From NCBI GenBank assembly GCA_030594205.1, contig JAUVFR010000001.1, positions 220,252 through 283,814 on the forward strand: a stretch of 63,563 bases of DNA, in the 5' to 3' direction. Below the pieces are notes generated by a model. The model was given only the letters and a program-made list of their open reading frames with translations. It had not been told where the DNA came from and made no database searches. Both the position numbers and the translations under genes were made by a program. Shown piece by piece: positions 12,379 to 63,563 of this stretch. Positions within the stretch are counted from its first letter, which is position 1. Each line of letters begins with the position of its first letter. This stretch comes from Methanobacteriota archaeon (GTDB taxonomy: Archaea; Thermoplasmatota; Thermoplasmata; RBG-16-68-12; JAJISG01).

Positions 12379-13431
12379 TCACGGCCGCATCCGCTGGAGC
12401 CGGAGGTAGGCCACCTCCTCCCCCGTGCGGCCAAGGAGGATCTCCTTCCGAACGCCGTGGGCGAGGCGCACGGCTCGGCTCACCTCCGGCCAGGTCCCGG
12501 TAAAGCCCTCAGGAAGGGCGTGAATGAGGTACTTGGCGTGGGTCGAATCGGGGTCTCCCTCGTAGCCGCGGAAGTGGGCCCCGTACTTGAAGCCGGTCTT
12601 GACCAGAATGCCCCGCTCCTTCAAGTCCTCGTAGACCCGCAGTCGCAGCTGGAAGTCGGGCTGAATCCGGATGGCCTCTCGCAAGAGCGTGGCGAGCCCC
12701 ACCTTTCGACCAGTCTGGGCCCTTCGCACGACGAGGGCCCCGCGCTGGGCCAAGTACAGGGTCTCGAGGAGGGACAGTTGAAGGCGCTCACCCAGCATCT
12801 TCCCGTAGAACCCCCTCTCGTAGAGCCCCCGCGCACTCGCGGCGTCCGTGACCAGCGACCGGTCATTCATGAACAGCGCCTCGGCCTCGATCCCTGACAG
12901 GTCGTCTTGCATCCGTCCCCGGGGCGAGGCGTTGGAGACGCGGTAGTAGGTGATGTCACTCTCCTCGTCCACGACCGCAACGACGAGCTCCTTGCGGACC
13001 CGGGCCACGCGCCCGAGGTGAGCCTCGAGCTCTCCCAGATCAAAGAGGCTACGCTCCGAGAGGGCGAGGACCCAGTATCGCGTGGGGGCCTTGTCCGGTC
13101 CGGACCCACGCGGAAAGACCCGGAAGTCCAAGGGGGGCACGCCCGCCTTGACGACGTACCCCCGCTGTCGAAGATCCCGGTACACGAGGTACCGGATCTC
13201 GAAGTTCGGGAGCACGGCATTCCCCTGCCGGAAGAGGTTCTTGATTCCCAGCTTCCGGCCGGCCCGCGTGACGTCGAGCTTCCCCGCCTCGCTGAGGTAC
13301 GCCGCTTCCACGAGGTCGAGTTCCACCCCTCCGCCCGGGAGGGGATTCCCGAAGTAGCCGCGGTTGTACAGGCGGCTCCCGTCGGCCTCATCGGCCACGA
13401 GAACCTTCCCTTCGAGGAGCCGTCCGGACAT
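12379..13431 (-). CDS. endA: tRNA-splicing endonuclease, two-unit (homodimeric) type
   Basis: EndA cuts bulge-helix-bulge motifs in precursor tRNA. At 350 residues it is twice the single-unit size, and two internal repeats are visible. Each has YNRGYFGNPL / YERGFYGKML, LVEAAYLSEAGKL / LLETLYLAQRGAL and a beta-strand C-terminal half. Only the second repeat has the catalytic triad region: YGAHFRGY, STHAKYLIHAL (His) and RLAHGVRKEILLG (Lys). The first repeat is the structural pseudo-catalytic unit, as in the Archaeoglobus-type enzyme. The start ATG 13431 (MSGRLLEGK) lies 28 bp from a TATA-like GCTTATACT. A two-intron tRNA-Val in the same window is a likely substrate. Confidence 0.9.
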   Translation of the reverse strand: MSGRLLEGKVLVADEADGSRLYNRGYFGNPLPGGGVELDLVEAAYLSEAGKLDVTRAGRKLGIKNLFRQGNAVLPNFEIRYLVYRDLRQRGYVVKAGVPPLDFRVFPRGSGPDKAPTRYWVLALSERSLFDLGELEAHLGRVARVRKELVVAVVDEESDITYYRVSNASPRGRMQDDLSGIEAEALFMNDRSLVTDAASARGLYERGFYGKMLGERLQLSLLETLYLAQRGALVVRRAQTGRKVGLATLLREAIRIQPDFQLRLRVYEDLKERGILVKTGFKYGAHFRGYEGDPDSTHAKYLIHALPEGFTGTWPEVSRAVRLAHGVRKEILLGRTGEEVAYLRLQRMRP

Positions 13432-13525
13432 GCAGGCGAACAAGGTCGCCGGAGTATAAGCACGTCCGCGAACGTTTGAGGCGTCCTGCCGGTACTGAGG
13501 ACACGCCCGATAGCGATCTGGTTTC

Positions 13526-48083: not shown

Positions 48084-51000
48084 TCAGAACCGGCTCACGA
48101 GGCGCCACTTGTTGGGGGCGGGGGAGTAGACCTCCCCCTCCTGACTCCAACGCTTGAGCCATGCCTCCACGCGGTTGGGCGGTACGCCCCGTTCCTCCGC
48201 CGCCTCCAGGATGTCCTTCAACTCCGCCGCCCCGTCGCGCTCGGCCAATTCCCCGATGATCTCCCGCAAGGCGATAATCTGGGCCCGCTGGGACTGGCTG
48301 AGCCCCGTGGCCACGATGTCGATGTCGAATCCACCCTCGATGCCCGTCACGCGCTCCAGCCAGTACTCGGCAATGCGCACGGACCGCTCTGCATCCTCCG
48401 CCTCCACGTTGGGGCTGAGACGGGCACGGGCGCTGGCCTCGGCGAGTCGGATGAAGGCCTCCAGCTGTCGAGGCGTGATCGGGACCGTGCCCGTCTCGTC
48501 CTCCCCTTGCTTCCGAATCTCGAGGTACTTGTCCTGGATGACCTGCATCGCCTCGGGCGTGAGAACGGGATAGACGCGCTTGGCGTAGGCGATGTATTTC
48601 CGCAGGAAACTGGGCTCGAAGTAGGGAAGGAACGCCTCGTCCACCTCCTCCGGGTGTGCGTCGAGTCGATGGGACTCCGCCTGACGCATTTTTTCTCCTG
48701 CGAGGTGCCCTCGGAGGATGTGCTCCGCCATCGCGCGGTCGACCTGCGCCTGCGGCTTGTCCAGGATGGGGAAGATGGTGTCGAACCGCGAGAGGAGGGT
48801 AGGCGGGAGCTGAATTTGCTCCGAGATGTACTTCCCTGAGTCAAAGCGTCCCAAAGTCGGATTCGCTGCCGCAAGAATCGAGGTTCGAGTCTGCAACGTA
48901 GCTGTGATTCCCGCTTTGGCGATGTGGACTGTCTGTTGTTCCATTGCGTTGTGGATGCTCGATCGATCCTGGTCGTTCATCTTCTCGATCTCGTCGATGG
49001 CCACGAGGCCCCGATCGGCGAGGACCAACGCCCCGGCCTCCAGTGTCCAGCGCCCCTCTCCAAACTCATCTCGCACGGCCGCCGCGACCAAGCCGGCTGG
49101 CGTCGCTGCCTTGCCTGATGTGTAGATTCCCCGCGGTGAAAGCCTCACGATGTAGGTCAACAGTTCTGACTTGGCCGTGTTGTGGCTGATGATGCCGTTA
49201 GCGATGAACCGCTCTGGACCCGGAACCTCGACATCGTACACCGTCTCCACTCCCACGGTGCGGATTGACACAATGCGTTCCGTCAGATGGCGGTGCCAGC
49301 GACGACTGCGACCCTCGGCCTCCCTAACCACGTCCTCCAGTCTCTTCCCTTTCTTTTCACTGGCGAAGCCGATTTTCTCCGCGAACGTGATCAGTGAGTT
49401 GGCCTGGCGGATTACCAAGGAGCCACTTGGACCGCCGCGGATCAGGTCCCCTCGGGAGGAACGGTGAGGTCTGGGCGCAGGCCCCCAGAGAACTCGGCTA
49501 TGAACGCCCCATCTCAGGAGGAGAACCTGGACGTCACGAAGCAACTCGATTTCGGCCGATCTCAAGGTGATGGCTGTCCGGCCGCGTCCGTTAGCGAAGC
49601 AGGAGCCGTCCGCTTCGAAGAGCCAACGGAGGAAGGAGCTTACCACCGAGTTCCGGGATCTGAGGATGGAGTCCGGAATTCGCTTCACCCGAAGATCCTG
49701 AAGCCATCGAGCGATCGGTGTGCGGTCCACTTGATAGGCAATGGTGTGATGCCGGGGCTTCTGTCGGTTCGGGGTTACGCCGAAGACTTCCTCAATCAAG
49801 CCGACGAGCAAGGGTTCGAGTTCCAGCTCTTCGGTCGCGATTTGGAAGCCTACTCTTCGGTCCTGGATCCAGCCATCTCCCAGAACGTAGCCTAGGATGG
49901 CCGCGAGCTTCTCATCAAAGAATTCGGGGACTCGCACGCGCCATGATTTGTGGTAGTACTCCGGCTTCTTCCATCCCGTCCGAACGAGGGCCCGCTTAGT
50001 GCACCTGATGCTCGGTGTCACCCTCACGCGGTCTCCGATGCGCAATGCGTCCAAGCGTCTCCACTCGCCCCGACGCTCTTGCGGAATCCAGACAAGAAGC
50101 GGATGGTTGTAGGTGCCCTTGATGCACTTCCCCGATTCTGTGACAACTTCCAAGATGGGTTGCTTTTCATATCGATGGAAGCGTGTTGCCAAGCCGCTCC
50201 GATAGCCTCCGGTCCCGAGTCGCAGCCTTTCCGAGATCGGCTGAAGATGATGGGTTCCGAGATCCTCGAGTTTGGCGGTGGTCCCGTTTCCAAGGGTAAT
50301 CCGTTCATCACCGATGAGGCACCCGGGGTCCCCCACGAGCAATACGTGGCTGTCTCCACGGATGCGTCGGCCGTCGGGAAGCTCCTTGGCCACGCCTCCG
50401 AAAAGCTGGAGGGCCAGGGCCTCCTTCTCCACATTCAACCCATAGATGGAGGGGGCAATCGATCCCACGATCTTGCGGATGACGTCGCCGCTCGCGGCCT
50501 CCTCCAGGATTCGCTCCTCGTCCTCCGGCGTAATCTCGATTTCCTCGTACTCGACCTCCTCCAACTCCAGCCCGACGACGTCGAGGAAGATGTCGAAGAG
50601 CGTGGATTTGGAGCGGAATCGACCGCGCTGGGAGCCTCGCAAAACCCCGTTGAACACGATGCGGTCCCCCGGGTTGGCGAGCCCGACGAGGTCCTCCTCC
50701 AGGTAGCCGGCCAGACGTTGTGGAGCTTCTCCCCCGCGGAGGTCCTCCGGCGCCTCCTGAATCTCGATCTTCTGGGTGTCGATGTAGCGGGAACCCTCAT
50801 CGAGGAGCTTGAATTTCGTCGCACCCGTAGTGCGGCTACAACCCCCTTGGTCCTCGTAACACTCCAATGGCTCGCGAAAGTCTAGACCCTCCTGGGCCTC
50901 CTTGATCACCGCCCCGCAACGCAGACACTGGAAGACCGCCTCGACCAGACGGGGGCGGACCTCGGTCGCCTTCCGAACGAGCCCTTCGACGGAGACCAGC

Positions 51001-51359
51001 TTTCCCAGATGCTTCGCTCGAAGGTCGCGGACCTCGACTCGGAGGTCCCGGGGGACGCCTCGAACCCGAAACCGGATTTCGGCTTCCTCGGTGGGCGGAA
51101 CAAAGCTGCGGATCGCCTGTTCCACGGAGTACACGGCATTCTGAGGGTGGTCGAGGAGGTAGATTGCCAGGTCCGAGTCGAACCGGTCGATGGCGCCGTA
51201 GTCGACCTCCAGGCTTCGCTCCTCCGGATAGGCATCCGCGAGCTTGGTGATCCGCCCGCTGAGGTCGGCCTCGTCGAGGAATTCTTCCCAGCGCGCTACT
51301 AGCTCCTCGGTCGAATAACTCAGCAGGTGACGGTTCCCCCGTCGCGTCGTTGTGACCAT
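48084..51359 (-). CDS. mcm: replicative helicase MCM, interrupted by an intein
   Basis: The 1091-residue precursor contains a normal MCM of about 710 residues plus a 381-residue intein. Host parts are the N-terminal domain (RWEEFLDEADLSGRITKLADAYPEERSLEVDYG), the zinc finger (CLRCG...CYEDQGGC) and the OB region. Then come the AAA+ core with Walker A GDPG/TAKSELL (split by the intein), Walker B VAIDEIEKMNDQD and Arg finger LSRFDTIF. A C-terminal winged helix follows. MCM unwinds DNA 3' to 5'. ATG 51359 is used; a TATA-like CTTAAATAGC lies only about 8 bp upstream, so the true promoter is not clear. Confidence 0.96.
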   Translation of the reverse strand: MVTTTRRGNRHLLSYSTEELVARWEEFLDEADLSGRITKLADAYPEERSLEVDYGAIDRFDSDLAIYLLDHPQNAVYSVEQAIRSFVPPTEEAEIRFRVRGVPRDLRVEVRDLRAKHLGKLVSVEGLVRKATEVRPRLVEAVFQCLRCGAVIKEAQEGLDFREPLECYEDQGGCSRTTGATKFKLLDEGSRYIDTQKIEIQEAPEDLRGGEAPQRLAGYLEEDLVGLANPGDRIVFNGVLRGSQRGRFRSKSTLFDIFLDVVGLELEEVEYEEIEITPEDEERILEEAASGDVIRKIVGSIAPSIYGLNVEKEALALQLFGGVAKELPDGRRIRGDSHVLLVGDPGCLIGDERITLGNGTTAKLEDLGTHHLQPISERLRLGTGGYRSGLATRFHRYEKQPILEVVTESGKCIKGTYNHPLLVWIPQERRGEWRRLDALRIGDRVRVTPSIRCTKRALVRTGWKKPEYYHKSWRVRVPEFFDEKLAAILGYVLGDGWIQDRRVGFQIATEELELEPLLVGLIEEVFGVTPNRQKPRHHTIAYQVDRTPIARWLQDLRVKRIPDSILRSRNSVVSSFLRWLFEADGSCFANGRGRTAITLRSAEIELLRDVQVLLLRWGVHSRVLWGPAPRPHRSSRGDLIRGGPSGSLVIRQANSLITFAEKIGFASEKKGKRLEDVVREAEGRSRRWHRHLTERIVSIRTVGVETVYDVEVPGPERFIANGIISHNTAKSELLTYIVRLSPRGIYTSGKAATPAGLVAAAVRDEFGEGRWTLEAGALVLADRGLVAIDEIEKMNDQDRSSIHNAMEQQTVHIAKAGITATLQTRTSILAAANPTLGRFDSGKYISEQIQLPPTLLSRFDTIFPILDKPQAQVDRAMAEHILRGHLAGEKMRQAESHRLDAHPEEVDEAFLPYFEPSFLRKYIAYAKRVYPVLTPEAMQVIQDKYLEIRKQGEDETGTVPITPRQLEAFIRLAEASARARLSPNVEAEDAERSVRIAEYWLERVTGIEGGFDIDIVATGLSQSQRAQIIALREIIGELAERDGAAELKDILEAAEERGVPPNRVEAWLKRWSQEGEVYSPAPNKWRLVSRF
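49179..50321 (-). other. intein in mcm Walker A, with LAGLIDADG homing endonuclease domain
   Basis: The intein begins at Cys347 and ends His-Asn before a Thr of the +1 position (SHN/TAKS), splitting GDPG-TAKS. Splicing motifs are CLIGDERITLGNG (block A), TYNHPLLVWI (block B), YDVEVPGPERFIANG (block F) and IISHN (block G). The endonuclease core has ILGYVLGDGWIQD and LRWLFEADGSC, the two LAGLIDADG helices. Length is 381 codons. The host reading frame is open, so splicing activity is likely. Insertion at this ATP-binding site is a known MCM location. Confidence 0.95.
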
Positions 51360-62813: not shown

Positions 62814-62879
62814 GACTATAATACTTCGCCAAGATGCGACATGATGGTGGAGCAGGTCACCGCCGCCTGACCCCCAACT

Positions 62880-62888
62880 GTTATACCG
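62880..62888 (+). promoter_or_regulatory. TATA box for tRNA-Val
   Basis: GTTATACCG is centred about 28 bp before the mature tRNA 5' end at 62911. Confidence 0.55.
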
Positions 62889-62930
62889 CCGCCCCAGTTC
62901 GGACCACCGTGGGCCCGTGGTCTAGTGGTT

Positions 62931-62950
62931 TGCCTCGCCGAGGCCCACCA
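62931..62950 (+). other. 20-nt non-canonical intron in the tRNA-Val D-loop
   Basis: The insertion lies between GTGGTT and ATGAC of the mature D-loop. Its bulge-helix-bulge is built from GTGG/CCAC with 3-nt bulges on each side and an inner 5-bp stem. Removal restores a normal D-loop. Confidence 0.85.
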
Positions 62951-62967
62951 ATGACGCCACCCTTACA

Positions 62968-62980
62968 ATCCGCATAGGAT
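62968..62980 (+). other. 13-nt canonical-position intron in tRNA-Val
   Basis: The insertion follows A37 and precedes A38. Removing it gives loop CTTACAA closed by CCACC/GGTGG. The bulge-helix-bulge uses CTTA/TAGG, bulges CAA and ATA, and a 6-nt loop. Confidence 0.8.
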
Positions 62981-63030
62981 AGGTGGAGGTCGTCGGTTCG
63001 ATTCCGACCGGGCCCATCCCCTCTTCGCAC

Positions 63031-63563
63031 CTAGGGCGGAGCCCTTCGCCGGGAGCTTCCCCGGGCAGACTGCGGCCCGCCCGCATCCTTCTTCTCGCGC
63101 CCCTCGACCATCATCCCCCCAAGGCGCCCGAGGTAGGCACCGTTGAGGAGGTATACCTGGGCTCGCTCCATGTCCACCAAGCCGGATTTCAGGATCGGAC
63201 CGAGGTACTGGCGACCCCTCTCGTTCACGGGGGTTCCCCCGGAGAACTCGTTGAAGGCCGGAACCAGGACCAGCTCCTCGGGGTGTTGCGCATAGCGAGG
63301 GTGGTCCGCCACGAAGGGGGCCCGGACCCAGCATCGTTCGTAGGTTCGGGGGCCCAGACGATCGGGGAAGAGGAGGGTCGGGTGGTTGTGACCCATGAGG
63401 AGGGTGTGGGCCTCCATGACCTCGGGGGAGGGCCAAGCGTGCCCGTGGATGTATGCGACGTCGTCCCGACGGTACCCCTCGGGCCCATGGAGGGTCACCC
63501 AACGGGGCAGCAAGTAGGCAATGTTCCCGTCGTGGTTCCCCTGGACCAGGTGGACTTCGGAAA
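63031..63563 (-). CDS. metallophosphoesterase, partial (5' end beyond window)
   Basis: The reverse strand from the window edge reads SEVHLVQGNHDGNIAYLLPRW, and the later GHAWPSPEVMEAHTLLMGHNHPTLL supplies the His of the last metal motif. This is a calcineurin-like phosphoesterase of the archaeal Icc-like type (the MJ0037-like family is possible). It ends in a basic tail (KKDAGGPQSARGSSRRR). The N-terminal motif (DxH and GDxVD) lies outside the window. It is convergent with tRNA-Val, whose 3' end is 15 bp from its stop. Confidence 0.75.
   Translation of the reverse strand, partial: SEVHLVQGNHDGNIAYLLPRWVTLHGPEGYRRDDVAYIHGHAWPSPEVMEAHTLLMGHNHPTLLFPDRLGPRTYERCWVRAPFVADHPRYAQHPEELVLVPAFNEFSGGTPVNERGRQYLGPILKSGLVDMERAQVYLLNGAYLGRLGGMMVEGREKKDAGGPQSARGSSRRRAPP

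Follow-up and report, generated by a model that had tools for sequence, protein, structure and literature searches.

A tRNA-Val(UAC) gene with two introns

The window, by which I mean the whole stretch of 63,563 nucleotides that was analysed, contains a tRNA-Val(UAC) gene of 106 nt (62911-63016, plus strand, anticodon TAC) that is interrupted by 20 nt in the D-loop and by 13 nt at position 37/38. The Rfam tRNA model (RF00005) matches precisely this interval at 50.2 bits and places one insertion in the D-loop and one downstream of the anticodon. An independent script, which scored every removal of zero, one or two introns bounded by a bulge-helix-bulge (BHB), ranked highest the removal of 20 nt after T20a and 13 nt after A37, a solution with four of four central pairs at both sites. 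On the plus strand, exon 1 (62911-62930, tRNA positions 1-20a) is followed by intron 1 (62931-62950, between positions 20a and 21), exon 2 (62951-62967, positions 21-37, with the anticodon TAC at 62964-62966), intron 2 (62968-62980) and exon 3 (62981-63016, positions 38-73). The exons are placed by the Rfam match and the enumeration, the introns by the enumeration, by analysis of their motifs and by comparison with orthologs. Joined, the exons read GGGCCCGTGGTCTAGTGGTTATGACGCCACCCTTACAAGGTGGAGGTCGTCGGTTCGATTCCGACCGGGCCCA, a canonical tRNA of 73 nt in which the stems of the cloverleaf are intact and the anticodon is UAC. The coordinates, strand, anticodon, two insertions and 73-nt product given in a preliminary description of this DNA are all confirmed by the Rfam match and the enumeration.

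A TATA-like box (CTGTTATA, 62878-62885, plus strand), recognized by consensus match only, begins at position -33 relative to the tRNA. This is the usual spacing, as the best TATA-like match falls at -29 to -34 in 27 of 32 tRNA genes of the source genome. The codon GTA is in use (28 of the 8052 codons in 14 open reading frames of the window). ARAGORN recovers one of the two tRNAs in the window, missing tRNA-Val(UAC) both here and at the loci with orthologs, a warning that tRNA finders can overlook genes interrupted in this fashion. A match to an Rfam plastid RNA on the minus strand was discarded as the antisense of the tRNA.

The two introns differ in the motifs that bound them. Intron 1 lies in a strict BHB, formed on the plus strand by the central helix GTGG/CCAC (62925-62928 with 62945-62948), the bulges TT^T (62929-62931) and CA^A (62949-62951; the caret marks the junction) and the inner helix GCCTC/GAGGC (62932-62936 with 62940-62944). 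When the intron was shuffled, four central pairs plus an inner helix of 5 bp arose in 0.015% of trials. A U13.U22 mismatch lies beside the motif in the outer D-stem. The minimum free energy (MFE) fold of the D-loop fragment has the register slid by one (UGGU/ACCA, with 2-nt bulges), but relatives keep the register with 3-nt bulges, and the assignment made here rests on that conservation and not on MFE.

Intron 2 is instead of the bulge-helix-loop type. Its helix CTTA/TAGG (62962-62965 with 62975-62978, plus strand) is followed by a 3' bulge, AT^A (62979-62981), while on the 5' side the bulge merges with a terminal loop (62966 to 62974); with at most one inner pair it has no real inner helix and is not a strict BHB. 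Four central pairs were found in 1.3% of shuffled versions, and the local fold of lowest energy is a different hairpin, ATCC/GGAT, not a BHB. Both introns had been described as sitting in a BHB with a 4-bp helix and two 3-nt bulges, which holds for the D-loop intron; of these elements, only the 4-bp helix and the 3' bulge are present at the 13-nt intron. A length of 13 nt, described earlier as close to the shortest reported, is ordinary. Archaeal tRNA introns are reported to range from 11 to 129 nt, with medians mostly 12-25, and introns of 12-13 nt occur elsewhere in the source genome in two Thr, one Asn and one Gly tRNA.

The splicing endonuclease and the interrupted tRNAs it would serve

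The window also encodes a tRNA-splicing endonuclease, EndA (12379-13443, minus strand), in a single open reading frame with two PF01974 and two PF02778 stretches, as the preliminary description had proposed in calling it a two-unit enzyme. Alignments to EndA structures and across the order place the motifs KTGFKYG, HAKYL and VRK, which carry the catalytic Tyr, His and Lys, all in the C-terminal second repeat. The closest sequence in the PDB is 5x89 (EndA-like protein, tRNA-splicing endonuclease), followed by 1r0v. With two repeats in one protein, one of them catalytic, and no second EndA gene found in the draft genome, the enzyme is of the alpha'2 type. By alignment, in which the CSL-type loop was the feature compared, it does not belong with the broad-specificity enzymes, (alpha beta)2 or epsilon2 with a CSL/ASL loop and conserved Lys: the Crenarchaea-specific insertion of the Aeropyrum pernix enzyme (3p1z) is a gap in the window EndA. 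RtcB is present in the source genome.

The source genome, that of an uncultured member of the Thermoplasmatota, is a draft of 1.54 Mb in 69 contigs, 94% complete. Introns are apparent in 19 of the 38 tRNA genes found in it, a few of them with uncertain junctions and the draft being incomplete; the published proportions of intron-bearing tRNA genes are about 8% in Euryarchaeota versus about 48% in Crenarchaeota (PMC4090602). T-loop introns (59/60) are seen in four tRNAs: Met(CAT) (G000:C51:38788-39096, L026), Lys(CTT) (C63:59574-59826, L110), Ser(TGA) (C39:11347-11579, L111) and His(GTG) (C47:18738-18966, L112). The Lys gene has an additional intron at 37/38 and is the second two-intron tRNA of the genome. 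The T-loop intron of tRNA-Met was found by exact-pattern search in at least 18 of the 37 genomes of the order. At position 57 its central pair varies between G-C and A-U from family to family, with an A.G mismatch in f5. These T-loop introns and the doubly interrupted Lys(CTT) gene run counter to the earlier expectation that off-position introns and two-intron tRNAs would be uncommon in this lineage. Outside the order, matches in the phylum to the Met pattern are mostly intronless tRNAs with TCCG downstream and were set aside; an insertion is seen in G301 and G237 alone.

Related genomes provide further instances. In G001, from a sister genus within the family, Arg(CCG) carries a D-loop intron; in G004, from a different family of the order, D- or T-loop introns interrupt Arg(CCG), Pro(TGG), Ser(TGA), Lys(CTT) and Ser(GGA) (for both genomes, loci L120, L139, L140, L141, L142 and L144). 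The junctions of the D-loop introns are unsettled for G001 Arg(CCG) and G004 Pro(TGG), as the enumerator is unreliable on these two and, in the source genome, on Phe, Tyr and Ser(GGA).

All five D- and T-loop introns of the source genome have the strict motif, and mini-introns of the loop type occur at 37/38 only. This pattern fits the specificity reported for alpha'2 enzymes (PMC6379350). When the introns of three genomes are pooled, those shorter than 18 nt number 0 of 16 off-position versus 13 of 30 at 37/38 (Fisher p = 0.0015; p = 0.035 for the source genome alone), values to be taken only as a guide, as the 18-nt cut was set after the catalogue had been viewed and the related genomes are not independent.

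It might be supposed that the off-position introns are cut not by the alpha'2 enzyme but by a heterotetramer whose second subunit escaped assembly, or by a broad-specificity EndA. The genome is incomplete and a second subunit could be missing from it; moreover, published off-position introns mostly accompany heterotetrameric or broad-specificity EndA (PMC4090602, PMC12397907). Set against this, the same two-repeat type is encoded in 35 of the 37 genomes of the order (the 35 that gave a match), and the EndA matches listed above the cut-off include just one extra, a short fragment in G035. The crenarchaeal-type loop insertion is absent from all 19 EndAs aligned across the order. Finally, family f17 combines a D-loop intron in tRNA-Val with the same type of EndA. 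I consider a second or broader enzyme improbable and the alpha'2 EndA the better candidate.

Orthologs and history of the locus

Both introns of tRNA-Val(UAC) are kept in the sister genus, whose gene of 107 nt, with a 14-nt version of intron 2, is 90% identical overall; the same gene is found on a contig labelled Candidatus Thermoplasmatota archaeon bin292. The MFE fold of the sister genus's D-loop intron is a competing hairpin. In G004 (contig labelled Euryarchaeota archaeon bin_16) only the D-loop intron is present. It measures 30 nt, differs in sequence and has an inner helix of six pairs, and it shares the site and the central helix GTGG/CCAC that are also the same in the sister genus. Family f2 has only the intron at 37/38, in 15-nt versions, and the members read of families f3, f5 and f6 have no intron in this tRNA.

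Convergent with the tRNA gene lies a gene without a Pfam match (63031-63513, minus strand), homologs of which adjoin tRNA-Val(UAC) in families f1, f4, f5 and f6 (tblastn). Because these families have the neighbour in common, their tRNA genes are orthologous, and occupied and empty intron states are represented at one locus. Under the EndA tree, the D-loop introns of f1 and f4 may go back either to one gain with subsequent loss or to two gains.

These comparisons bear on whether the gene works at all. If it were a disrupted pseudogene, valine GTA codons would be read by another tRNA, an intact copy of which could be hidden in the draft genome. However, no second Val(UAC) gene is found among the tRNAs recovered from the draft, the stems formed by the exons are all intact, splicing motifs bound both insertions, and the gene is conserved at the same locus in the sister genus. 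A pseudogene is therefore very unlikely. Weaker still, and hardly credible, is the notion that the D-loop insert is retained as an enlarged D-arm: it does fold into a stable hairpin, but its ends fit the geometry of cleavage, the junction motif is preserved although the insert changes in sequence and length (20 and 30 nt), and the D-loop is uninterrupted in orthologs from related genomes.

Several other Thermoplasmata, including contigs labelled Methanomassiliicoccales, have an intron at this D-loop site. Among contigs named as Thermoplasmatota and DPANN, the central helix of introns at 20a/21 mostly, though not always, pairs despite base changes (GTGG/CCAC, GTGG/CCGC, GCGG/CCGC, GGGG/CTCC). 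The exact D-loop pattern is rare in the phylum, occurring in a sample of 390 genomes only in the source genome and G047, once a match in G252 that looks like a chance occurrence in coding DNA is removed. Four of the 24 matches to the pattern in the collection were likewise dismissed as non-tRNA sequence, probably coding DNA matched by chance.

As a separate observation, the same site of tRNA-Val is occupied by a D-loop intron on contigs assigned to Woesearchaeota, to Aenigmatarchaeota and to other lineages that are DPANN or unplaced (loci L074, L076, L078, L080, L086-L090, L093, L095 and L096). Some of these genes have extra introns, and several of the inner helices are weak or absent.

Motif and position in the proposed splicing of tRNA-Val(UAC)

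Judging from sequence, the gene very probably encodes a functional tRNA-Val(UAC), single-copy as far as found, from which an alpha'2 EndA would excise both introns and whose exons RtcB would join. The window's own alpha'2-type EndA would act, as a homodimer, on both introns. The D-loop intron would be cut on the strength of its 3-nt-bulge/4-bp/3-nt-bulge motif, which alpha'2 EndA would accept wherever it is located. The 13-nt intron would be cut because enzymes of this type accept a bulge-helix-loop at 37/38 in full-length pre-tRNA. The D-loop intron would presumably go first and the 37/38 intron second, since cleavage of a bulge-helix-loop is described as needing full-length tRNA. RtcB, in its presumed role as ligase, would then join the exons. 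The most likely reading is thus that EndA and RtcB would splice this tRNA in the ordinary way, cleavage being licensed by the motif and not by where it lies.

The alpha'2 EndA of Archaeoglobus fulgidus is rated narrow, requiring a strict 3-nt bulge, yet in full-length pre-tRNA it can excise introns of the bulge-helix-loop type at 37/38 (PMC6379350; PMC12397907). Like the enzymes of A. fulgidus and Thermoplasma acidophilum, the window EndA has two repeats per chain with the catalytic residues in the second and no Crenarchaea-specific loop; unlike those enzymes, which are rated narrow (PMC6379350), the same type here coexists with D- and T-loop introns. As to the introns, positions 20/21 and 59/60 and tRNAs with several introns are already established (PMC4090602, PMC4033280, PMC11291895). 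The preliminary description had held that two-intron tRNAs and D-loop introns are described mostly from Crenarchaeota and a few other lineages and would be uncommon with a two-unit EndA. Reviews bear this out, describing tRNAs of Euryarchaeota with alpha2 or alpha4 EndA as having a single intron, at 37/38 (PMC4090602), but the published spread is wider: multi-intron tRNAs are known from Methanopyrus, Methanothermobacter, Korarchaeum and ARMAN (PMC4033280), and more than half of the tRNA genes of Asgard archaea are multi-intronic (PMC11291895). As in these archaea, and in Thermoproteales and Nanoarchaeum, motif-bounded introns occur here at non-canonical sites (including 20/21) as well as at 37/38, several per tRNA; the host, in contrast, belongs to the Thermoplasmatota and has a fused two-repeat EndA without the broad-specificity loop. 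Off-position and double introns are therefore known in kind, and it is the enzyme context that reviews do not predict. I found no earlier reports of D-loop, T-loop or multiple tRNA introns in Thermoplasmatota in the part of the open-access literature that I searched.

More broadly, the evidence leans towards an order of Thermoplasmatota having come independently to interrupt its tRNAs as extensively as Crenarchaeota do, with only a narrow alpha'2 EndA, the enzyme limiting the motif and not the position. This could be possible because off-position introns keep the strict BHB and mini-introns of the loop type stay at 37/38. Reviews tie off-position and multiple tRNA introns to broad-specificity EndA, and this lineage, with a narrow type and diverse positions, is a natural counter-case, in which motif and position as limits on the spread of introns can be tested directly.

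Elsewhere in the window, the gene for an MCM helicase (48084-51359, minus strand) has an apparent intein inside the P-loop, recognized only by inspecting the translation by eye: GDPG is followed by CLIGDE...NGIISHN and then by TAKSE.
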